A stretch of 64,000 bases of DNA. Source: Paragemmobacter straminiformis. GTDB taxonomy: Bacteria > Pseudomonadota > Alphaproteobacteria > Rhodobacterales > Rhodobacteraceae. A model generated the notes under the pieces. It did not search any database and was not told where the DNA came from. It saw nothing but the letters and a program-made list of their open reading frames with translations. Shown one piece after another: positions 30,123 to 40,200 of the stretch (its first letter is position 1; the number at the start of each line of letters is the position of its first letter). The translations under genes and the position numbers were made by a program. The stretch is from contig NZ_JACLQD010000004.1 in assembly GCF_014243445.1 (NCBI RefSeq), forward strand, positions 186,001 to 250,000, written 5' to 3'.

Positions 30123-31748
30123 TCACATCCGTAACCGGAACCGCTGGATTTTTCCTGTCTGGGTCTTTGGGAGCGCCTCGGTGAATACCACGCGCCGCGG
30201 GTATTTGTAGGGGGCAATGATCGCCTTGACGTGGTCCTGTAGCAGTTTGACCGTCTGCGCGTCGCGCGCGTGGCCGGGTGCCAGAACGACATGGGCCTCG
30301 ACGATCTGGCCGCGGTCTTCATCCGCCGCGCCGATCACGGCGCATTCCAGCACCGCCGGATGCGACAGGAGCGCCGCCTCCACCTCGGGTCCGGCGATGT
30401 TGTAGCCCGCGCTGATGATCATATCGTCCGATCTGGCGGCGAAATGGAAGCGACCGTCTTCGTCCTGCCAGAAACTGTCGCCCGTCAGGTTCCAGCCGTC
30501 GCGCACGTATTTCGCCTGCCGGTCATCTGCCATGTAGCGGCAGCCCGTTGGGCCGCGCACGGCAAGGCGTCCGACCTCGCCGCGGGGGAGTTCGGTCATG
30601 TCGGGGCCGACGATGCGGGCTTCGTATCCTGTGACAGGGCGACCGGTGCAGCCGGGGCTGTGGTCGTCGAAGCGGTTGGTGATGAAGATATGCAGCATCT
30701 CGGTCGCGCCGATCCCGTCGAGCATCGGCTTGCCGGTCTTGGCGATCCATTCGTCGTAGACTGGCGCGGGAAGTGTTTCGCCCGCGCTTACGGCGGCGCG
30801 GAGCGATGACAGGTCGGCGCCTTCGTCCATCGCCTTGAGCATCATGCGATAGGCGGTCGGCGCGGTGAAACAGACCGTGGCGCGATGTTCCTGGATAAGC
30901 TCGATCATGTTCGGGGGGCTGGCCTGTTCCAGCAGCGCCGCGGCAGCCCCGAAGCGGAGCGGGAAGATGGCAAGCCCGCCGAGGCCGAAGGTAAAGGCGA
31001 GCGGCGGAGAGCCGACGAAGACATCCTCTGGGGTCACGCCCAGCACTTCCTTGGCGTAACCGTCCGCGATGATGAGAAGATCGCGGTGGAAATGCATCGT
31101 GGCCTTCGGCTCGCCCGTCGTGCCCGAGGTGAAACCCAACAGCGCCACGTCGTCCCGCCCCGTCGGGGGCGGAGTGAAGCGGACGGGTTTTTGCAGCGCG
31201 ATGCGGTCCAGTTCCGCATCGTGGTTGGCCGTTCCGTCGAAGCCGATGACGGTTTTCAGGAAGCTGCTTTCCTTTTGGCAGGCGACCAGTTCCTCCATCA
31301 GCCGTGTATCGCAGAGGGCGTGCGAGATCTCGGCCTTGTCGATGATCTTCGTCAATTCGCCCGCGCGGAGCATGGGCATGGTGTTGACCACCACCGCCCC
31401 TGCCTTGGTCGCGGCCAGCCAGCAGGCCACCATGGCCGGATTGTTGGCCGAGCGGATGAGCACGCGGTTGCCGGGCTTCACGCCGTAATCCCCGACCAGC
31501 GCATGGGCGATGCGGTTGGACCAGTCGGTCATTTCCTTGTAGGTCCGCACACGGCCATTGCCGATCAGTGCCACGCGGTCACCGAAGCCGCGTTCCACCA
31601 TGCGGTCGGACAGTTCGACACCGGCATTCAGCCATTCGGGATAGTCGAACTGTCCGCATTTCAGTTCGGGCCAAAGATGGCTTGGCGGAAGGTTCGCGCG
31701 CGTGAAAGCGTCGCTGTGACCGGACGGTCCGAGCGTTTCGATCGACAT
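30123..31748 (-). CDS. acyl-CoA synthetase, benzoate/2-aminobenzoate-CoA ligase-like
   Basis: 541-residue AMP-forming ligase of the ANL family. P-loop-like motif FTSGTTGEPKATMH, adenylate motif DGIGATEMLHIF, GDSFWQDEDGRFHFAARSDDMI, and catalytic Lys in PKTQTGKIQRFRL. The overall pattern (N-terminal NLPPSHLWPE and TMPMLRAGEL) matches aromatic acid ligases annotated as benzoate or 2-aminobenzoate-CoA ligases. It would activate an aromatic or ring-derived acid as CoA thioester. ATG 31748 has AGGG upstream; a TTG at 31778 is possible. Last gene of the NicX-headed operon, 68 bp after the permease with a stem-loop between. Confidence 0.82.
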   Translation of the reverse strand: MSIETLGPSGHSDAFTRANLPPSHLWPELKCGQFDYPEWLNAGVELSDRMVERGFGDRVALIGNGRVRTYKEMTDWSNRIAHALVGDYGVKPGNRVLIRSANNPAMVACWLAATKAGAVVVNTMPMLRAGELTKIIDKAEISHALCDTRLMEELVACQKESSFLKTVIGFDGTANHDAELDRIALQKPVRFTPPPTGRDDVALLGFTSGTTGEPKATMHFHRDLLIIADGYAKEVLGVTPEDVFVGSPPLAFTFGLGGLAIFPLRFGAAAALLEQASPPNMIELIQEHRATVCFTAPTAYRMMLKAMDEGADLSSLRAAVSAGETLPAPVYDEWIAKTGKPMLDGIGATEMLHIFITNRFDDHSPGCTGRPVTGYEARIVGPDMTELPRGEVGRLAVRGPTGCRYMADDRQAKYVRDGWNLTGDSFWQDEDGRFHFAARSDDMIISAGYNIAGPEVEAALLSHPAVLECAVIGAADEDRGQIVEAHVVLAPGHARDAQTVKLLQDHVKAIIAPYKYPRRVVFTEALPKTQTGKIQRFRLRM

Positions 31749-31783
31749 GGTCTGCCCTGTTTTTTCGGATTGAGACAAGGGGT

Positions 31784-31807
31784 GGGGGGGCGATGTCTCG
31801 CCCCCCC
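31784..31807 (-). other. strong intercistronic stem-loop
   Basis: GGGGGGGCGA pairs perfectly with TCGCCCCCCC around a TGTC loop (10-bp stem) between the APC permease stop and the CoA ligase start on the minus strand. No T-run follows, so it is more likely an attenuator or mRNA-stabilising/processing element than a full terminator. Confidence 0.55.
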
Positions 31808-31816
31808 CTGTGTCGG

Positions 31817-33262
31817 TCAGGTGCGGTTCTGGCCCATGCGGGCGAAGCTGGCCGGATCGGTCTTTTCAAGCCGGACGGCTGCCAGCCAGCCGATCACCGC
31901 GGCGAGCGGAATCAGCGACGGGAAGATCCAGCGCAGGCCGCCGCCAGCCGTGCCGGTCAGGTCGCCGAAATTGATGAAGATGTAGACGAACAGCACCGCC
32001 ATGATCAGCCCGGACAGGGCGGGCAGCACCAGCGTCGTCAGGGCTGGGCCACCCTGACGGCGGAAGAACATGATCACCGAAAGCGAGGTTACGGTCATCA
32101 TGCCAAGAACACCTAGGGTGCCGATCTGGCTGATCCATGTGAACATGTTCAGCACGGGATCGAGACCGAGGCCCGCGAAGACGGCAAGCACGACCAAGGC
32201 ACCGATGGTCTGCACGACCGAACCGATATGCGGGCTGGAATGGGTGTCATGCGTGCGGCCGAAGGCGGCGGGCAGCAGTCCCTCGCGTCCGGCGACATAG
32301 CTGTAGCGGGCGATGTAGTTATGGAAGGCCGAGAGGGCGGCGAAGAGGCTCGAGACGAGCAGCAGCCCCGCTATCGGCGGCACGGGTCCGCCGACATAGG
32401 TATCGGCCAGCACGAAGAAGAATTCGGTCGGGTCGGCAAGGCCGCCGATCGTCGGGATCAGGTTTGCCGCACCGACACCGGCGATCATCAGCCATGTGGT
32501 GAATACAAAGAAGATGCCGATGAGCAGGACCGACAGATAGGTCGCGCGGGGGATCGTGCGGTCGGCATCGCGCGCTTCCTCGGCATATATGGTGGTCGCT
32601 TCGATGCCGATGAACGATCCGAGGCAGAACAGGATCGCGGCGGTGAGCGAGCCCGAGAAAATCGCGCCCGTGTCGAAGATGTTGACCGAGAGACCGCCTG
32701 CGTCTGCCGCGCCGCCCTTGGCGAGGATGGCGAAATCGACGAGCAGCACGATCAGGTATTCGAGGGCAACGAGCAGGACGAGGACGCGCGCGGAAAGGTC
32801 CACTTGCCGATAGCCCAGGACTCCTACCAGCAGCACGGCGATCAGGCTCCACGCCCACCATGGCAGGTCGATGCCGAAGCCTGCGAACACGCCCGACGCT
32901 ATGCCGCCCAGAAGCCCGATCAGGCCGAATTGCATGGCGTTATAGGCGGCAAGGGCCGTGAAGGCGGTCGCACCCGCCCAGCGTCCGCCAAGGCCGCGTG
33001 CTGCATAGGCGTAGAAGGCGCCCGCGTTGCGCACATGGCGCGACATGGCGACATAGCCTGCCGCGAAGGCGAGCATGACCAGCGTCATGAACAGGAACGT
33101 GGCTGGCACGCCCGTTCCGTTGCCGAGCAGGAATGCAATGGGCACAGCTCCCGCAACGCCCGTCAGGGGTGCTGCGGCCGATATGACCATGAAGGTGACT
33201 GCAAGCAGCCCCAGTGAATTCCGGCGAAGTTCGTTCGCCCCGTCCCCTGTTATTTGCGTCAT
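31817..33262 (-). CDS. APC superfamily amino acid/amine permease
   Basis: 481 residues with about 12 membrane helices. Features of the amino acid-polyamine-organocation family: an N-terminal SLGLLAVTFMVISAAAPLTGV, GAFYAYAARGLGGRWAGATAF in TM3, and IGIEATTIYAEEARDADRTIPRAT-type segment between TM6 and TM7. It probably imports the operon's substrate, an amino acid-, amine- or aromatic-amine-like compound. It lies 92 bp downstream of the flavin reductase gene in the same direction. Confidence 0.85.
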   Translation of the reverse strand: MTQITGDGANELRRNSLGLLAVTFMVISAAAPLTGVAGAVPIAFLLGNGTGVPATFLFMTLVMLAFAAGYVAMSRHVRNAGAFYAYAARGLGGRWAGATAFTALAAYNAMQFGLIGLLGGIASGVFAGFGIDLPWWAWSLIAVLLVGVLGYRQVDLSARVLVLLVALEYLIVLLVDFAILAKGGAADAGGLSVNIFDTGAIFSGSLTAAILFCLGSFIGIEATTIYAEEARDADRTIPRATYLSVLLIGIFFVFTTWLMIAGVGAANLIPTIGGLADPTEFFFVLADTYVGGPVPPIAGLLLVSSLFAALSAFHNYIARYSYVAGREGLLPAAFGRTHDTHSSPHIGSVVQTIGALVVLAVFAGLGLDPVLNMFTWISQIGTLGVLGMMTVTSLSVIMFFRRQGGPALTTLVLPALSGLIMAVLFVYIFINFGDLTGTAGGGLRWIFPSLIPLAAVIGWLAAVRLEKTDPASFARMGQNRT

Positions 33263-33354
33263 TACACTTCCCTCTGTTGGTCGGACGCCCGTTCTGCGCG
33301 GTTCGTCCCGGTTTACCTCGGCCTCTTGCGGGTCCGATGGATGGGGTTCGTCGG

Positions 33355-33876
33355 TCAGGTCTTTGCTTCAGGCAGGTGGACCGCCCGCCGATAGGCGCGC
33401 TGCCCATAAAGCAGCGCCGTCGGACTGTCCGACAGCCGGACGGAATGGACCCGCCCGACGATGATGTGATGTGTCTCCCAGAGCAGGGCCGTGGCCAGAC
33501 GGCATTCGAAGACGGCGGTGGCACCTGCCAGCATCGGCTGGCCTATCTCTCCCGCCTGCCAATCTGCGCGGTCGAAGCGGGTGGCGTGGTCTGTTCCGGC
33601 GCGTCCGGCGAAGAGGTTCGACACCTCCTGCTGGTCTTCGGCCAGAAGGTTGGCGCAAAAGGCGCGGTTCTTCAGGATCGCGGATGTAGCGGGGCTGAGA
33701 TGGTGGATGCAGGCCAGAAGCGACGGCTGGTCGCCATCGGCAGAAACCGATGTGAGGGACGAGATGGTCACCCCCGCCCGCCCGCCTTCTCCATCAGTGG
33801 TGGCGACGGCGACGAAGGTGGCAGCGCGGCTCATGCCTTCCAGAAAACGGGCGCGAAGGTCCTCCATTGCGGTCAC
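33355..33876 (-). CDS. flavin reductase (HpaC/DIM6-NTAB type)
   Basis: 173 residues with the FMN-reductase-like split barrel: FVAVATTDGEGGRAGVTISSLTSVSADGDQPSLLACIHHLS is the flavin-binding stretch (read here as separate segments AGVTISSLTSVS and PSLLACI), then NRAFCANLLAEDQQEVSNLF and HHIIVGRV. Such enzymes supply reduced FMN or FAD to a two-component monooxygenase; the acyl-CoA-dehydrogenase-like flavoprotein in this operon is the natural partner. The GTG start at 33876 overlaps the stop of the upstream ligase (GTGA); ATG 33867 is an alternative. Confidence 0.85.
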   Translation of the reverse strand: MTAMEDLRARFLEGMSRAATFVAVATTDGEGGRAGVTISSLTSVSADGDQPSLLACIHHLSPATSAILKNRAFCANLLAEDQQEVSNLFAGRAGTDHATRFDRADWQAGEIGQPMLAGATAVFECRLATALLWETHHIIVGRVHSVRLSDSPTALLYGQRAYRRAVHLPEAKT

Positions 33877-35213
33877 CCGAGATCGAAGAAGCGTTCGAGT
33901 TCCACATCGGGAACCTTGCGGCGGAATTCGTTATATTGGCCTTCGCGTGTGGCGGTGAAGGCTTCGACGAAGCGGGGGCCGAGCCAGTCCTTGGCGAAGT
34001 CCGATCCGCGCAGACGCTCGATTGCTTCGGGCATCGAGCGGGCGAAATCGCGCGGCGGGGTCTGGGCATAGCCCGAGCCGAGGGTTTCGGGGTCGGGTTC
34101 GACCCCTTCGATGATGCCCGCAACACCTGCGGCGATGGTGGCGGCGGCGGTCAGGTAGGGGTTGGTGTCGGCACCGGGCAGGCGGTTCTCGACCCGCAGG
34201 CTGCCCGCATCATGGCCGACAAGGCGGAAGCAGGTGGTGCGGTTCTCGTATCCCCATGTCAGGCCCGGCGGGGCAAAGGTGCCCGGTGCGAAGCGGCGGT
34301 AGCTGTTCACCGTCGGTTGGAAGATCAGCGTCATGTCGCCGATGTATTTCTGCAAACCGCCGAGGAAGTGCAGGAAGGTCTGGCTGACGCCGTTGCGTCC
34401 GGCAGGATCGTAGAAAAGCGGCTTGCCCGCCTTGTCTTTGAGGCTGACATGCAAGTGGATCGACTGGCTGTCGGCCTGTTCGTTCCAGCGTGGCATGAAG
34501 GTGACCGATTTGCCCTGCCGCAAGGCCAGAGCGCGGATGAAGTTCTTCAGAAGGACCAGTTGGTCGGCAGGCTCGGTTCCCTCGCCCGCGCCAATGCAGG
34601 CCTCCATGAAACCCGCACCGATTTCCTCGTGCATCTTGGCAAGGTCGATGCGGAGGGGTTCGCACATGTCCGAGATGGCTTCATACCATTCGGTCTGAAG
34701 CGCCTGATAGATCGTCAGGTCGTGGCTGGCGTGCTGTGTGGCGGGCTTCAGGTTCCGGTAGCCCTTGGACTTTGCGCTTTCGGGCGTTTCGTCGAAGAGG
34801 GTGTATTCCAGTTCCATCCCGTATTTCGGAAAGAACCCCGCCTCGGACGCGCGGGCGAGGACGGATTTAAGGATCGAGCGGGGGCACATCTTGGCGGATT
34901 CGCCGGTGAAGTTGGACAGGACCAACAGATCATGCCCCGGCTTCGACCACGGCAGGCGGCGCACCGTGGCGGGGTCGAGTTGCAGCGGATCGTCGTGGAA
35001 ATCACCCGTCTCGTCATTCACGCCGGGAATGGTTTGCAACACATCGGTCGGGTCGAGCGAAAGCTGGGCCGGGGCCATGCCCATGCCGTTCTTCGCGATG
35101 CCTTTCAGGCTTGAGACCGAGACCATCTGCCCGCGCAGCAAACCGTTCGTGTCGGCCATGACCACCGTGGCGAACCGGCTTGCCGGATCGGCGATGTAGT
35201 CTTCCAGCTTCAT
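33873..35213 (-). CDS. glutamine synthetase family protein (gamma-glutamyl-amine ligase-like)
   Basis: 446 residues with GS-family catalytic features: GMELEYTLFDE, EEIGAGFMEA, HLHVSLKD, WGYENRTTCFRL and RVENRLPGADTNPYL. The sequence is of the GlnT/PuuA-like branch rather than housekeeping GlnA (no adenylylation-site tail is recognisable). Members ligate glutamate to polyamines, alkylamines or anilines, often to start catabolism. In this operon it may glutamylate an amine substrate or intermediate. ATG 35213 overlaps the TetR stop (ATGA); the frame stays open further upstream but that is the TetR gene in another frame. Confidence 0.85.
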   Translation of the reverse strand: MKLEDYIADPASRFATVVMADTNGLLRGQMVSVSSLKGIAKNGMGMAPAQLSLDPTDVLQTIPGVNDETGDFHDDPLQLDPATVRRLPWSKPGHDLLVLSNFTGESAKMCPRSILKSVLARASEAGFFPKYGMELEYTLFDETPESAKSKGYRNLKPATQHASHDLTIYQALQTEWYEAISDMCEPLRIDLAKMHEEIGAGFMEACIGAGEGTEPADQLVLLKNFIRALALRQGKSVTFMPRWNEQADSQSIHLHVSLKDKAGKPLFYDPAGRNGVSQTFLHFLGGLQKYIGDMTLIFQPTVNSYRRFAPGTFAPPGLTWGYENRTTCFRLVGHDAGSLRVENRLPGADTNPYLTAAATIAAGVAGIIEGVEPDPETLGSGYAQTPPRDFARSMPEAIERLRGSDFAKDWLGPRFVEAFTATREGQYNEFRRKVPDVELERFFDLG

Positions 35214-35890
35214 TCTTCGTCCCCTGTCGTTCGGGCGCTTGCAAGCGCCTCTAGCTGTAAAAGGTCGTCTTCCGGCGAGGTCGAATAGGCGCGCAGGAAG
35301 ACGCGCAGACCGTTCGTGACGTATCGGGCAAGGTCGTGCCGGTTGGGCACCGTATCGGGCTGGTAGAGCGCCTGCGTTCGCGGGGCGGAGAGGATGAGAC
35401 CCCACAGATCCTGCGCGGCGAGTTCGGCATCGTCGAAGGCAAGTCTGCCTGCGGCGCGCTGCAATTCCAGATAGGCCATGATCCCCGCAAGCAGCCGATC
35501 CGGCCCGCTTGCCTGATAGGCGCGACCGATCTCGGGGAAGCGCTGCACCTCGCCGATGATCAGACGGGCGAGCGACAGCATCTCTGGCTGCATCACCGCA
35601 TCGGCATAATCCCAGGCGAAGGCGTGCAGGTCATGCACCATGCCCTTTGGCGAGGGATGGTCGAAGACGGCCATCATCTTGTCGCGCAGGCCAAGCATCA
35701 TGGCTTGGAACAGGTCTTCCTTGCTGGGGAAGTATTGGTAGAGGGTGGGTTTCGACAGGCCCGCCGCAGCGGCCACCGCATCCATCGTCGTGCCGGAATA
35801 GCCCGCCTGCGCAAAGACGCGCAGCGCGCCGTCGAGGATACGCCGCGTCCGATCCATCCGGTTCTGTTCGCGGCGCGAGGGGGCGGTCAT
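35210..35890 (-). CDS. TetR/AcrR family regulator
   Basis: 226 residues. N-terminal helix-turn-helix RILDGALRVFAQAGYSGTTMDAV with the recognition segment AAGLSKPTLYQYFPSKEDLF is diagnostic; the C-terminal helical domain (QPEMLSLARLIIGEVQRFPE) is the TetR_C type found in efflux and catabolic regulators. It is embedded in the operon, overlapping both neighbours by 4 bases (ATGA), so it is co-expressed with the pathway. Probable site: the tandem palindromes at 39592-39625 ahead of the first gene. Confidence 0.88.
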   Translation of the reverse strand: MTAPSRREQNRMDRTRRILDGALRVFAQAGYSGTTMDAVAAAAGLSKPTLYQYFPSKEDLFQAMMLGLRDKMMAVFDHPSPKGMVHDLHAFAWDYADAVMQPEMLSLARLIIGEVQRFPEIGRAYQASGPDRLLAGIMAYLELQRAAGRLAFDDAELAAQDLWGLILSAPRTQALYQPDTVPNRHDLARYVTNGLRVFLRAYSTSPEDDLLQLEALASARTTGDEE

Positions 35891-37176
35891 TTTGCAAGCC
35901 CCGCAAGAAAGGTGCAGAGGCGGTCGCTATAGCTGTCCGGCTGTTCGACATTGCAGACATGGCCTGCATCGGCGATCACCTCGAACCGCACATCGGGCCG
36001 CTTGGCGCTGTCCCAGATGCGACCCGCGACACTGCGGATTTCGGACGGCGGGGCCAGCCGGTCATGTTCGCCGGTCATCATCAGCACGGGCATGTCGAGA
36101 CGGCTGAAATCGAAGCGTTCGACGGGGTTGGTGAAGCAGAGAAGCGCGTCGCGATAGGTCGGGACGGGGATTGCCGACATCGACGCGAGCAAGTCCTGAC
36201 GCACGCGTTCCGACGCGCTGGGTCCGGCCAGCACCTTGACCACGGCAGGTGCGAAATCGGCAGGGGATTGGCCTGCGTTCAGCGGCACCTCGCGGCTGAC
36301 GCGGAAGGCTTCGCGCTCCTCCGGTCCCGCTTCGGACATGCCGGTGCAGCCGCCCGACAGGACCAGCCCGTCGAGCATTTCGGGGTAACGCATGGCAAAG
36401 GACGTGGCGATCCACGATCCGTAGGACAGGCCGACGAGCACAAGGCGGCGGGCACCCAGAACCTCGGCCACGCGGAGGATGTCTGCGCAGTAGTCGTCAA
36501 CGCTCGACTGGCGCGGGCCGAGCGTGCTGTCGCCATAGCCGCGCAGGTCCATCGCCGCCGAGCGGATGTGATGGCCCGCAGCGCCGAGTTGCGCCGCCCA
36601 GTTCGTGCGCCCGCCGCCGATCCCGTGCAGGAAGAGGCAAAGGCGACCGTCGCCAAGTTCCGGCGTGACAGACACGGCGAGGCGTGGCAGGTCGTCGATC
36701 AGGCGGGTGGTGACGGGGACGGGGGCAGGGCGGGGTGCCGTGGTTCCGCCCACGGGGGCGGAGGCGCCGCGCAGGGCGTCGATTCCGGCCTGATAGACCG
36801 CCCGCGTGCCATCGCAGATGTCGCGCAGCCGCGCTGCCGGAGCTTCGATCTGCGCGGTCCAGAGCACGGTGCAACCGCCGCTTTCCGACGGTGTGACCGT
36901 GACCCGCGCATCATAGGATTGCGCCCCCGCGATACCTTCCAGATGGGTATAGGCCATCACGTGGTCGCTATCGGACAGGTAGGTGCGCTGCTCGCGGTAA
37001 AGGGTCGCTTCGCCCTTGACCGTAAAGGCCCGGATCAGGCTGCCGCGCAGGTCGCGCTCTTCCCGCATCGAGGCGATCCAGGGGTGCCACGGGGCGCAAA
37101 AGTCGCGCAGCACCGACCAGACCGCCGAGGCGTCAGCCGAAACGTGCCCGTGGACCTGAACGCTGTCGCGCGGCAT
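35887..37176 (-). CDS. SRPBCC-alpha/beta hydrolase fusion (NicD-like hydrolase candidate)
   Basis: 429 residues in two parts. About 1-140 is SRPBCC/polyketide-cyclase-like (VQVHGHVSADASAVWSVLRD, then VTPSESGGCTVLWTAQIEAP). About 165-429 is an alpha/beta hydrolase: LFLHGIGGGR oxyanion segment, MDLRGYGDS, nucleophile Ser251 in GLSYGS, Asp in TGEHDRL and His in DAGHVCNVEQP. Next to a NicX-like dioxygenase, the hydrolase may act like NicD, which deformylates N-formylmaleamate; the fused SRPBCC could bind the hydrophobic substrate. ATG 37176 is 4 bases after the upstream stop; a longer frame to 37263 overlaps the upstream gene and is rejected. Confidence 0.78.
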   Translation of the reverse strand: MPRDSVQVHGHVSADASAVWSVLRDFCAPWHPWIASMREERDLRGSLIRAFTVKGEATLYREQRTYLSDSDHVMAYTHLEGIAGAQSYDARVTVTPSESGGCTVLWTAQIEAPAARLRDICDGTRAVYQAGIDALRGASAPVGGTTAPRPAPVPVTTRLIDDLPRLAVSVTPELGDGRLCLFLHGIGGGRTNWAAQLGAAGHHIRSAAMDLRGYGDSTLGPRQSSVDDYCADILRVAEVLGARRLVLVGLSYGSWIATSFAMRYPEMLDGLVLSGGCTGMSEAGPEEREAFRVSREVPLNAGQSPADFAPAVVKVLAGPSASERVRQDLLASMSAIPVPTYRDALLCFTNPVERFDFSRLDMPVLMMTGEHDRLAPPSEIRSVAGRIWDSAKRPDVRFEVIADAGHVCNVEQPDSYSDRLCTFLAGLAK

Positions 37177-37180
37177 CGGC

Positions 37181-38521
37181 TTAGCGAAGTCCCTTGAGGC
37201 TGCCCGAGTCGCCGCGCCAGAGCGAATTGCGCGCACCCCCTTCGTCACCCGGCGCGGTATCAAGCTCGTTCATCTCGTAAAGGGCCAGAACGCCGATGTA
37301 GTCTTCCATGATTTCCGAGGTGTATGGCAGCATCAACGCCCCGCAGCGGCTGTCGCGATACATCCGCTCGAGAGGAAGGGACTTCAGCATCGACTGCCCG
37401 CCACAGGTGCGGATGGCGAGCGCCGTCATCTCTTGCGCGCCTTCCATCACGTTGTATTGCGCGGCATACATGCGCATCACCTCGGCCTTCGTGGGCATGC
37501 CCTTGGCTTCGGAAAACGCCTGCCACCACAGCGCCCGCATGTTGGCGAGACGGGCATACATCTTGCTGACCGCCACCCGCTTCGTGGCATACATCCGCCG
37601 GTCGATGGGCGGCTGACCGGGAACCTGCCCCTTGAGGTAGGCAATGGTGAAATCATAGGCCCCCTGCGCCACGCCCATATAGGTGGGCGACAGTGTCGCC
37701 ATCATGTGCGGCCAGTTGGGCAGCGTCTTGCCGAAGATGCCACGCGGCATCAGAAGATCATCCTTTGTGACGAAGACATCCTTCAGGATCAGGTCGCGGC
37801 TGTTGGTGCCACGCATCCCGAGCGGGTCCCACTCGCCCTTCACCGTCAAACCGACCGAGTTCTTGTGGACCACGAACAGCATCGTGTCCTCGTGTCGCGG
37901 CTCCACTCCTTCGAACACCTCGGTGCAGACGATGGTGTAATAATCGCAATAGCCCGCCAGAGACGCGAATTTCTTGAAGCCGTTGATCCGCCAGCCACCT
38001 TCGACGGCGCGGCACTGGGTCTGGTTGGGCTTCGACGTCCAGTTCTGACCGCCTTCCGAAATCGGCTGCGAATAGATCGCCCGTTCCTTCATCGCGCGGG
38101 TGAACTGCCGCGCCCGCAGGGGGAAAAATTCGGCCTTTTCCTCGGGCGTCAGGTTCGGCATGTCATACATGAAGCGCGACCATGCCATTGACGAATTGTG
38201 CATGTTGAAGGTCAGCGCGGTCGCCCCGCAATACTTGGCGATTTCGGCCCCGACCATGGCGTATTCGCCCATGGAAAAGCCCCAGCCGCCGAATTCCTCG
38301 GGGATGGACAGGCCAAGGAAACCCGCTTCGGCCAGATCGCGATAGTTTGCCGTGGGGAAGGACGCCTCGTCATCCACAGCCTTGGCGCGGGCGGCAAAGA
38401 CCGGCCCCATTTCGTTGATCTTCGCCATCGCCGTCGCCACCTCTGGCCGCACGCGGGACATATCGTAGTAATCCGCAGGCGCGCTCACGGGCATCGCGGT
38501 GACGGGGGTCTGGACGTTCAT
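37181..38521 (-). CDS. acyl-CoA dehydrogenase-fold flavoprotein, catalytic Glu absent
   Basis: 446 residues with acyl-CoA dehydrogenase architecture: an N-terminal helical domain (YRDLAEAGFLGLSIPEEFGG), a mid beta-domain (WRINGFKKFASLAGYCDYY and LGMRGTNSRDLILKDVFV) and a C-terminal helical bundle (RTCGGQSMLKSLPLERMYRD). Where chain-length dehydrogenases have the catalytic Glu before the TSxI segment (YEGTSQI-like), this one has LPYTSEI. It is therefore probably not a beta-oxidation enzyme but a group-D-type flavin monooxygenase or a related oxidase, using reduced flavin from the reductase of this operon. ATG 38521 overlaps the upstream stop (ATGA). Confidence 0.78.
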   Translation of the reverse strand: MNVQTPVTAMPVSAPADYYDMSRVRPEVATAMAKINEMGPVFAARAKAVDDEASFPTANYRDLAEAGFLGLSIPEEFGGWGFSMGEYAMVGAEIAKYCGATALTFNMHNSSMAWSRFMYDMPNLTPEEKAEFFPLRARQFTRAMKERAIYSQPISEGGQNWTSKPNQTQCRAVEGGWRINGFKKFASLAGYCDYYTIVCTEVFEGVEPRHEDTMLFVVHKNSVGLTVKGEWDPLGMRGTNSRDLILKDVFVTKDDLLMPRGIFGKTLPNWPHMMATLSPTYMGVAQGAYDFTIAYLKGQVPGQPPIDRRMYATKRVAVSKMYARLANMRALWWQAFSEAKGMPTKAEVMRMYAAQYNVMEGAQEMTALAIRTCGGQSMLKSLPLERMYRDSRCGALMLPYTSEIMEDYIGVLALYEMNELDTAPGDEGGARNSLWRGDSGSLKGLR

Positions 38522-39570
38522 GGGGCAAGCTTTCCCTGCAAAACGCCGTCTTTCACGACGACGCGCCCGTCGAGGGCTATGGTGCAATTCCGCATCGGAA
38601 GGTCGAAATGGCCGAGTGTGTAGCGGCCTGCATACTGGTTTGCTCCGGTCGACCACAGGAACGAACCCGCAATGGCGCGGAACTCGACCGCCTGCATGTC
38701 GCGCTTGTCATACATGGTGGCCGAAACCCATTTCGCGCCGTGGTTCATGCCCCAGCCGACATGGGACATGCCAAAGGCGTTCCGGTCGGCCCACGCCTCC
38801 ATGTATTCGCGCAAGTGCAGGGCATCGATGCCGTCGCCGCCGATCTTCGTGACGAAATCGTTCTCGATGGTGAAGTCGATGCGGCTGGTCAGGAAGGTCT
38901 TGAACGTCAGGTTCATGTCGCCCACGTCCATCACGATCCGCCCGTTCACAGCATCCTTGCCGGGGAAGGCAAGGCAAAGGCCGCCCGGCCAATGTGCCAC
39001 CGCGCCCGGCGTGGTGCCGAAGCCTGCCGTCCCGCCGCAGGGCGCGCCGCGCAGATCGACCGTCAGGTCGGTTCCGGCCTTGGATGTCACCCGCATCTCG
39101 GACGCTTCGCGCAGCATCTGGATGCCGATCTGGAGTCTGACGTTGTCCTCGGCCTTCGGCTCGGTCCGTTCGAGGATTTCAGGATGTTCGTTGGTGATGA
39201 CCAGAAGCCGCGTGCGCCCCGCCTCTTCGATCTCGGGCCATTCGGGGGCGTGGATTATGCCTTCGACCGTGCAATCGACGATCACATCGACCAGCTTGAG
39301 GGCCTCGATCACGGCGCGGTTTCCGGCGATGGCCCAACTCGTGCCCGTCGATTTGACCGGAACGGGCGCGGCCTGCGGCGGGGTCGGCATCTGGATCATG
39401 CAGAATTCCGCGCCGAGGTCATAAGCCGAAAGTTCGCACAGATGCACCAGCACCGGCCGCGATTGCGTCTCGGACAGGATCGCGATCCGCGTTCCCGCGC
39501 CGATCCCGTTCAGCGTGAAGACACGCCGAAAGGCGGCAAGCCATTTGCCTTCGATGCGCTCTTGAAGCAT
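38518..39570 (-). CDS. 2,5-dihydroxypyridine 5,6-dioxygenase-like protein (NicX/M29 superfamily)
   Basis: 350 residues, the usual NicX length. Long colinear similarity to NicX from memory: SKAGTDLTVDLRG, HWPGGLCLAFPG, GRIVMDVGDMNLTFK, MSHVGWGMNHGAKW, LWSTGAN, HFDLPMRNC. His270, Ser307, His321 and Asp323 match the NicX metal/active-site set (His265, Ser302, His318, Asp320). NicX opens 2,5-dihydroxypyridine to N-formylmaleamate with Fe(II) and O2. It is first in the minus-strand operon, with AGGGA upstream of ATG 39570. The exact ring substrate may differ, since the rest of the operon is unlike nic clusters. Cytoplasmic. Confidence 0.82.
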   Translation of the reverse strand: MLQERIEGKWLAAFRRVFTLNGIGAGTRIAILSETQSRPVLVHLCELSAYDLGAEFCMIQMPTPPQAAPVPVKSTGTSWAIAGNRAVIEALKLVDVIVDCTVEGIIHAPEWPEIEEAGRTRLLVITNEHPEILERTEPKAEDNVRLQIGIQMLREASEMRVTSKAGTDLTVDLRGAPCGGTAGFGTTPGAVAHWPGGLCLAFPGKDAVNGRIVMDVGDMNLTFKTFLTSRIDFTIENDFVTKIGGDGIDALHLREYMEAWADRNAFGMSHVGWGMNHGAKWVSATMYDKRDMQAVEFRAIAGSFLWSTGANQYAGRYTLGHFDLPMRNCTIALDGRVVVKDGVLQGKLAP

Positions 39571-39869: not shown

Positions 39870-40076
39870 ATGATGGGATCGTGGCAGGTCGCACAAGGCG
39901 CGCTGTTCTACGAGTTCTCGCTTGAGGATCATGTCCCGCAGGATCCCCTGACCCGCGCGATTGACCGCTTTGTCGACCTCGGCGGCATCCGTCAGCATTT
40001 GGCCCCGTTCTACAGCACTACTGGCAGGCCGTCGGTCGACCCTGAACTGATGATCCGCATGCTGCTGATCGGCTAT
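39870..40076 (+). pseudogene. truncated IS1182-type transposase, N-terminal fragment
   Basis: About 70 residues (ALFYEFSLEDHVPQDPLTRA, IDRFVDLGGIRQHLAPFYS, STTGRPSVDPELMIRMLLIGY) match the start of IS1182-family transposases, which are normally over 400 residues. Similarity stops at about 40076, where the frame soon meets a stop and a second IS remnant begins on the other strand. Not functional. The 300 bases to its left (39571-39869) hold the NicX operon promoter and otherwise no gene. Confidence 0.75.
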
Positions 40077-40200
40077 CCTCGCACCGTGATCTGATGCACT
40101 GCGTCCCGCTTGAACTCGTCGCTGCAATTGCTCGTCCCCATGTCGGCCTCCTAGCCTCAAAATTGGGGGGCAAAGCGTCTACAAATCTAGGGGCACCTCA
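40073..40200 (-). mobile_element. IS3-family 5' remnant (orfA start plus terminal repeat)
   Basis: On the minus strand a 22-residue frame from ATG 40141 (MGTSNCSDEFKRDAVHQITV then RG-stop) is the conserved N-terminus of IS3-family OrfA. Upstream is an IS-end-like stretch, 40176-40200, beginning TGAGGTGCCCC on the minus strand. The fragment joins the IS1182 remnant at about 40073-40080, so two IS scars abut. The remaining sequence to 40408 shows no gene. Confidence 0.7.

Follow-up and report, generated by a model that had tools for sequence, protein, structure and literature searches.

We have found an operon of eight genes, headed by a gene for a NicX-like ring-cleavage dioxygenase, in a 64,000-nucleotide stretch of the 4.1-Mb genome of Paragemmobacter straminiformis (contig NZ_JACLQD010000004.1, positions 186,001 to 250,000; hereafter the window). 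The operon is widespread and apparently undescribed, and it appears to serve the catabolism of an N-heteroaromatic compound by ring cleavage. Its end product is well supported: the pathway quite probably ends in anthranilate, because the coenzyme A (CoA) ligase of the operon is by orthology and placement the ligase of abm operons, abm genes adjoin the NicX cluster in several lineages and the gene abmA co-occurs with the dioxygenase. As the substrate we infer indole, a choice made from the chemistry.

The eight open reading frames named in the original prediction all exist and share one direction, running on the minus strand from 39570 to 30123; their family matches far exceed chance:

38518..39570, minus strand: NicX-like ring-cleavage dioxygenase with non-heme iron, 350 aa, proposed to cleave indoxyl (196 bits to PDB 7cn3; AF2 model)
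37181..38521, minus strand: acyl-CoA-dehydrogenase (ACAD)-fold flavoprotein, 446 aa, putative oxygenase component of a two-component monooxygenase (Pfam Acyl-CoA_dh domains)
35887..37176, minus strand: SRPBCC and alpha/beta hydrolase fusion, 429 aa, proposed N-formylanthranilate deformylase (Pfam Polyketide_cyc2, Abhydrolase_1)
35210..35890, minus strand: TetR-family regulator, 226 aa (Pfam TetR_N, TetR_C_7)
33873..35213, minus strand: glutamine-synthetase-like (GS-like) ligase, 446 aa (Pfam Gln-synt_C)
33355..33867, minus strand: flavin reductase, 170-173 aa, putatively serving the ACAD-like oxygenase (Pfam Flavin_Reduct)
31817..33262, minus strand: APC-family permease, 481 aa (Pfam AA_permease)
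30123..31748, minus strand: probable anthranilate (2-aminobenzoate)-CoA ligase, 541 aa (best match PDB 4wv3; synteny; tree)

Starts were corrected to ATG 38521 for the flavoprotein, ATG 37176 for the hydrolase, ATG 35213 for the GS-like ligase, ATG 33867 or GTG 33876 for the flavin reductase and ATG 31748 (or TTG 31778) for the CoA ligase. The ATGA overlaps, which had been said to couple most of the genes, exist at just three of the seven junctions (dioxygenase/ACAD-like, hydrolase/TetR and TetR/GS-like); a reductase start at GTG 33876 would add a fourth. Gaps of 4, 92 and 68 bases separate the flavoprotein gene from the hydrolase gene, the reductase gene from the permease gene and the permease gene from the ligase gene, respectively. 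Promoter and terminator scans gave no signal above chance. Upstream of the operon lies a 74-aa open reading frame on the plus strand (39870-40094), with no Pfam match, that by eye resembles the truncated start of a transposase.

The NicX-like dioxygenase and its partner genes

Sequence and structure model identify the first protein as an iron dioxygenase of the NicX fold. Pfam and NCBIfam gave no match to it at E 0.001, while Pseudomonas putida NicX (PDB 7cn3) aligns with it at 196 bits and about 33% identity. The AlphaFold (AF2) model of the protein (pLDDT 87.8) yields Foldseek TM scores of 0.89-0.90 to NicX (7cn3/7cup) versus 0.53-0.61 to the M29 aminopeptidases AmpT, PepS and AmpS. An M29 peptidase, the reading that the original prediction had named as fatal to it, is thus ruled out, and a NicX-type enzyme does stand at the head of what appears to be an N-aromatic catabolic operon. 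In four plasmid records (H1, H3-H5) the dioxygenase is annotated as ‘peptidase M29’; therefore the pathway is easily overlooked.

The His/Ser/His/Asp iron site of NicX is present in the window dioxygenase as H270, S307, H321 and D323. We aligned 132 dioxygenase sequences including the window's own (123 distinct), 120 of which form a clade with it at an identity of at least 40.5%. The iron ligands and the equivalents of NicX His105 and Arg293 are conserved in 119 or 120 of these 120 members, the rest being gaps, and that of His189 in 118. The position of NicX Glu177 is T181 in the window protein and T (89), G (15), V (14) or I (2) in the clade, with Glu in 0 of 120; the equivalents of Tyr178 and Glu308 are changed as well. 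This position holds E (6), Q (4) or N (1) in 11 records of lower relatedness (8 distinct genes, some from one genome), in which His105 is replaced by F, W or Y. In NicX, Glu177 contacts N1 and O1 of 2,5-dihydroxypyridine, and the E177A mutant retains 2.7% of the activity (PMC7910607, in excerpt). The nicotinate- or pyridine-like substrate suggested at first is therefore unlikely, since the residue that binds dihydroxypyridine is replaced throughout the clade; judging from its sequence, the dioxygenase probably cleaves a ring beside the nitrogen in some other substrate.

A scan for the locus found at least 511 relatives among at least 593 pattern matches, and the best 80 loci were kept; the counts below include loci at contig ends. 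Genes for the dioxygenase, the ACAD-like flavoprotein and the hydrolase lie on one strand within 8 kb in 72 of the best 80 loci, so that the synteny search proposed earlier recovers a conserved core. The other genes follow at lower counts: TetR in 67, GS-like in 55, flavin reductase in 47, APC permease in 35 and CoA ligase in 11. Judged by the dioxygenase, Rhodobacter amnigenus HSP-20 (95%) and Tabrizicola sp. TH137 (94%) are the closest named isolates among the matches listed. More distant loci (clade 2; 41-58% identity) carry NicX, the hydrolase, the ACAD-like gene and a different CoA ligase, without the GS-like gene of the operon, and some lack one or more of these genes.

The ACAD-like flavoprotein has Pro, in 105 of 106 homologues (one has a gap), at what we take to be the position of the catalytic Glu in the C-terminal domain of acyl-CoA dehydrogenases; the residue expected of a true dehydrogenase is thus missing. 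In the PDB it matches 5gj7 and 5z8t best (the title of 5z8t is flavin-containing monooxygenase), and indole-bound TdsC is within the first 50. The flavin reductase is RutF/HpaC-like, with scores under the cut-offs for both. As a reductase is encoded in the operon and also adjoins clade-2 NicX in four loci (L157, where Pfam identified it, L158, L165 and L172), the flavoprotein and reductase likely form a putative two-component monooxygenase. Family matches thus bear out the predicted set of monooxygenase-like flavoprotein, flavin reductase, hydrolase and aromatic-acid CoA ligase. NicD is the hydrolase that removes formate in the NicX pathway, and by analogy the SRPBCC/hydrolase fusion may be a deformylase.

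The GS-like ligase scores under the curated cut-offs of all four families matched, including GlnA (171.6 bits, cut-off 429), type III and gamma-glutamylputrescine synthetase. What we take to be the ammonium-site Glu of the genome's own GlnA, which is encoded elsewhere, aligns with Phe in the GS-like ligase. Given these scores, the Phe and the separate GlnA, the ligase probably acts on an amine, which it may mask by glutamylation as the original prediction proposed. Of 75 close relatives, 20 showed no such gene, loci at contig ends included. A second GS-like gene stands beside a P450-like gene (by eye) near the NicX operon in two loci (L042:13939-16451, L066:17593-20506).

Several other genes were seen near NicX. 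A gentisate-type module, mostly directly in front of it, combines a cupin resembling gentisate dioxygenase (the copy in the module at L028:9433-13883 scores 562 bits against PDB 3bu7) with a hydrolase of the FAH family; a GntR/FCD regulator and a second flavin reductase often join them, and a nitrilase does so sometimes. Glutamate-synthase-like three-gene blocks occur, in differing arrangements, at L038:12703-15954, L100:2-2435, L105:15070-18200 (domains GATase, GXGXG and Glu_synthase), L116:15125-18167 and L122:6857-9998; such a block possibly encodes N-methylglutamate synthase. Xanthine-dehydrogenase-type genes (molybdenum hydroxylase, by eye) lie beside clade-2 NicX at L049:5339-8921, L044:1-1662 and L169:1-1907. 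In metagenome-assembled genomes of Acidimicrobiia/Microthrix (L128, L130, L131, L132) NicX is paired with a CoA ligase, and these stretches showed no homologue of the ACAD-like or hydrolase gene. As the gentisate module, the glutamate-synthase-like neighbours and the different clade-2 ligase suggest, substrates may differ among lineages.

The CoA ligase and the abm operons

The best PDB match of the CoA ligase is the anthranilate-CoA ligase 4wv3. At 353 bits the protein misses the cut-off of 375.25 for benzoate-CoA ligases in NCBIfam, as does the abm-operon copy in L157 (362.8 bits), and its next paralogue in the same genome has 34% identity. Elsewhere (at C9) the genome encodes an FMO-OYE fusion, abmA, together with SDR, MarR, ECH, ACAD, thioesterase and Rid genes. 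The best named profile of the fusion protein is NCBIfam salicylyl-CoA 5-hydroxylase/oxidoreductase (1288 bits, cut-off 1078); from what is known of the pathway, we take the protein to be the 2-aminobenzoyl-CoA monooxygenase/reductase AbmA. Indolepyruvate ferredoxin oxidoreductase-like genes (L136:13986-17674; 283 bits to the alpha subunit model, under its cut-off) adjoin this abm operon.

We examined 17 abm loci, that of the window's genome and 16 from the 68 abmA-bearing genomes of a family sample (seven with close NicX and nine others). An orthologous ligase gene is within the abm operon in 14. It is missing from the abm locus of the window's genome, where it was not found in the 20 kb around the operon, and from that of its congener G104, and in both it ends the NicX operon instead; the third case is a remnant locus (G134) in which the FMO-OYE gene alone was found. 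In a tree of 11 NicX-linked and 13 abm-linked ligases, in which gains and losses are not separable, the NicX-linked ones do not form one group: three changes of place are seen, at least two of them forced by well-supported branches. By sequence comparison, then, the ligase is the orthologue of the abm-operon ligase. The original prediction had singled it out as an unusual part of the operon; it is indeed there, but it is not peculiar to the operon, as it belongs to abm-like operons and adjoins NicX in some lineages.

The two systems also lie next to each other in some relatives. A complete or nearly complete abm operon adjoins the NicX cluster in L114, L157, L158 and L159, and a partial one in L076; L157 and L158 are of the same genus, and the five loci span three families. 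In L120 NicX is directly preceded by an abmA-like gene (47%). A gene for tryptophan 2,3-dioxygenase follows the ligase gene in three Shinella loci (L029, L095, L099), and its L029 copy exceeds the TIGR03036 cut-off; this fits anthranilate, because the pathway of that dioxygenase can yield it. The hydrolase beside the Shinella ligase was considered as an arylformamidase, which its name does not support (NCBIfam: hormone-sensitive lipase). In the window's genome a tryptophan dioxygenase query, run without a positive control, had no match, and kynurenine as a source of anthranilate is unsupported there. A further tryptophan 2,3-dioxygenase gene (L172:16997-18112; Pfam 330 bits) is downstream of a clade-2 NicX, with TRAP-type transporter genes (by eye) in between.

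Co-occurrence points the same way. Fifty of the best 80 loci were submitted to a carrier test, isolates first, and abmA was found in 44 of the 50 genomes (one match partial); in the family sample 68 of 198 genomes have it. In a class sample of 385 genomes abmA is present in 20 of 27 carriers of close NicX (at least 45% identity) versus 51 of 358 others (Fisher p 6e-11, relatedness ignored; 13 of 18 families besides the window's own). Adjacency and the placement of the ligase are stronger evidence than co-occurrence.

A proposed route from indole and its rivals

An aerobic upper pathway of indole, indoxyl, N-formylanthranilate, anthranilate and anthraniloyl-CoA could account for most of the operon; as a full scheme we regard it as plausible without being probable. 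The ACAD-fold flavoprotein and the flavin reductase would introduce a hydroxyl group at C3 of indole, giving indoxyl; the NicX-like Fe(II) dioxygenase would split the C2-C3 bond of indoxyl to give N-formylanthranilate, and the SRPBCC/hydrolase fusion would remove formate as NicD does. The CoA ligase would then form 2-aminobenzoyl-CoA for AbmA of the abm pathway, which is encoded elsewhere in the genome. TetR presumably regulates the operon, and the APC permease and GS-like ligase may handle an amine-bearing precursor or product. NicX splits the HO-C5=C6H-N unit of 2,5-dihydroxypyridine into a carboxylate and an N-formyl group (PMC7910607, in excerpt); the same operation on 3-hydroxyindole (indoxyl) would therefore give N-formylanthranilate and then anthranilate. 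With anthranilate as end product a maleamate branch would not be expected. Sequence, structure model and synteny show the enzyme classes, the missing dihydroxypyridine-binding Glu, the orthology of the ligase and the link to abmA; indole as the substrate, the order of the steps, the monooxygenase and deformylase activities and the roles of the GS-like ligase and permease are proposals.

A number of observations weigh against this scheme. No gene or neighbour points to indole by name, the GS-like ligase and the permease have no role in it, and indole should not require a permease. Compared with the flavoprotein, true acyl-CoA dehydrogenases score nearly as high as the monooxygenase does. In published schemes isatin stands between indoxyl and N-formylanthranilate, and it is after isatin that N-formylanthranilate and anthranilate are reported as indole metabolites in other bacteria (PMC6221969 and PMC9871250, both in excerpt). 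The different CoA ligase of the clade-2 loci is not explained by it, and glutamate-synthase-like genes near NicX in five loci hint at another amine; homarine (N-methylpicolinate), considered because of these neighbours, is neither supported nor excluded. Given the best named profile of AbmA, the product may also be salicylate. In the family sample just 8 of 12 carriers of close NicX have abmA (p 0.025). An enrichment in abmA is likewise seen where NicX is less related (30-38% identity): in the class sample 9 of 23 such carriers have it, versus 42 of 335 genomes without NicX, and in the family sample 5 of 9 do. A general catabolic lifestyle therefore accounts for some of the co-occurrence; the difference between close and distant NicX groups in the class sample is weaker (p 0.02). 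Finally, the gentisate dioxygenase-like cupin stands beside NicX in 26 of the best 80 loci (L053-L132) and the FAH-family hydrolase in 25. We rejected gentisate as an either/or replacement of the CoA route, as abmA is present in 18 of 19 cupin-bearing genomes tested and two of 75 close loci hold both ligase and cupin; the end of the pathway is not simply the CoA route or gentisate.

Anthranilate could also be reached from another substrate, such as indole-3-acetate or another indole acid, a tryptamine-like amine, a 4-quinolone or an N-acyl anthranilate. We hold this possible, if doubtful. The GS-like ligase acting on the amine and the permease as importer would account for genes found in 55 of 75 close relatives and 35 of 80 loci; TRAP- or ABC-type transporter genes (by eye) beside some clade-2 clusters, the different clade-2 ligase, which suggests an acid, and class I GATase and glutamate-synthase-like genes near several loci would fit as well. 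Yet a C3 side chain must go before NicX-type cleavage gives anthranilate, no conserved gene for its removal was seen, and the GS-like and permease genes are often not found. It is unlikely that the operon yields salicylate or another benzoate, with the FMO-OYE protein as salicylyl-CoA 5-hydroxylase and gentisate to follow. The NCBIfam name of that protein and the cupin and FAH counts speak for it, but in the abm operon Rid, ECH, SDR and ACAD genes accompany an OYE domain, a set expected for ring-reduced amino-CoA esters; the ligase is nearest to anthranilate-CoA ligase and adjoins tryptophan dioxygenase in Shinella; and a gentisate dioxygenase query that matches 37 of the 198 family genomes is without a match in the window's own.

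The remaining two explanations we consider still less credible. The ligase might be a passenger, an accidental neighbour of NicX, with the two parts serving unrelated pathways; it is on the NicX contig stretch in just 11 of the best 80 loci, and its tree is compatible with one gain and later losses. Against such an accident, which seems quite improbable, stand the forced changes of place and the abm genes themselves beside NicX in three families. Least probable of all is a nicotinate- or picolinate-like pathway that cleaves 2,5-dihydroxypyridine or a close analogue, in spite of the NicX fold and iron ligands, the NicD-like alpha/beta hydrolase and the xanthine-dehydrogenase-type genes beside a few clade-2 clusters. 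Besides the loss of Glu177, the ligase belongs to the abm route, and maleamate amidase and maleate isomerase, unlike in the Azospirillum nic cluster, are absent from the eight genes (Pfam, NCBIfam), to which, rather than the rest of the genome, the search was confined.

Known systems and implications

The operon shares parts with several known systems. The window dioxygenase agrees with P. putida NicX in fold, the four iron ligands and the equivalents of His105, His189 and Arg293, but its clade differs in the substrate site described above, and it stands in another operon. With nic clusters (e.g. Azospirillum L032) the operon has NicX and an alpha/beta hydrolase in common, but lacks among its eight genes their FAD monooxygenase, Asp/Glu racemase-type and isochorismatase-family proteins. 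The abm pathway shares the orthologous ligase, and other abm-like genes are present in the same genome; here, however, the ligase sits in a NicX operon, the other genes of which are not part of abm. The iif/ind indole cluster likewise has a two-component flavin oxygenase with reductase and anthranilate as end product (PMC6221969, in excerpt), but no counterpart of its short-chain dehydrogenase IifB is among the eight genes (by Pfam, in these genes only and without a sequence search for the oxygenase IifA), and it uses a cofactor-free oxygenase where we propose an iron dioxygenase and a deformylase for ring opening. The iad cluster for indole-3-acetate also ends in anthranilic acid (PMC9613470, in excerpt); it depends on the aromatic-ring-hydroxylating dioxygenase IadDE, whereas none is seen among the eight genes.

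In line with the original prediction of an undescribed pathway, a literature search limited to leading results and open-licence papers found neither an account of the operon nor one of a NicX homologue that acts on anything but pyridines. The excerpts of a 2021 structure paper present NicX as defining its dioxygenase subtype and report no substrate besides 2,5-dihydroxypyridine (PMC7910607). A 2018 review, in the excerpts used, asks whether iif is the sole indole cluster and answers no, the genes of a gentisate branch being given as not known (PMC6221969). We tentatively suggest that the operon may represent a second aerobic pathway, so far unrecognised, that converts indole to anthranilate by direct cleavage of indoxyl to N-formylanthranilate, spread across Alphaproteobacteria with relatives in Gammaproteobacteria and Acidimicrobiia, and joined in some lineages to a gentisate module that possibly supplies the genes from anthranilate to gentisate. 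A large sister clade with an altered substrate site and a firm link to anthranilate would widen the NicX dioxygenase subtype, and it would offer a second pathway, open to testing, for signals and pollutants of the indole type.

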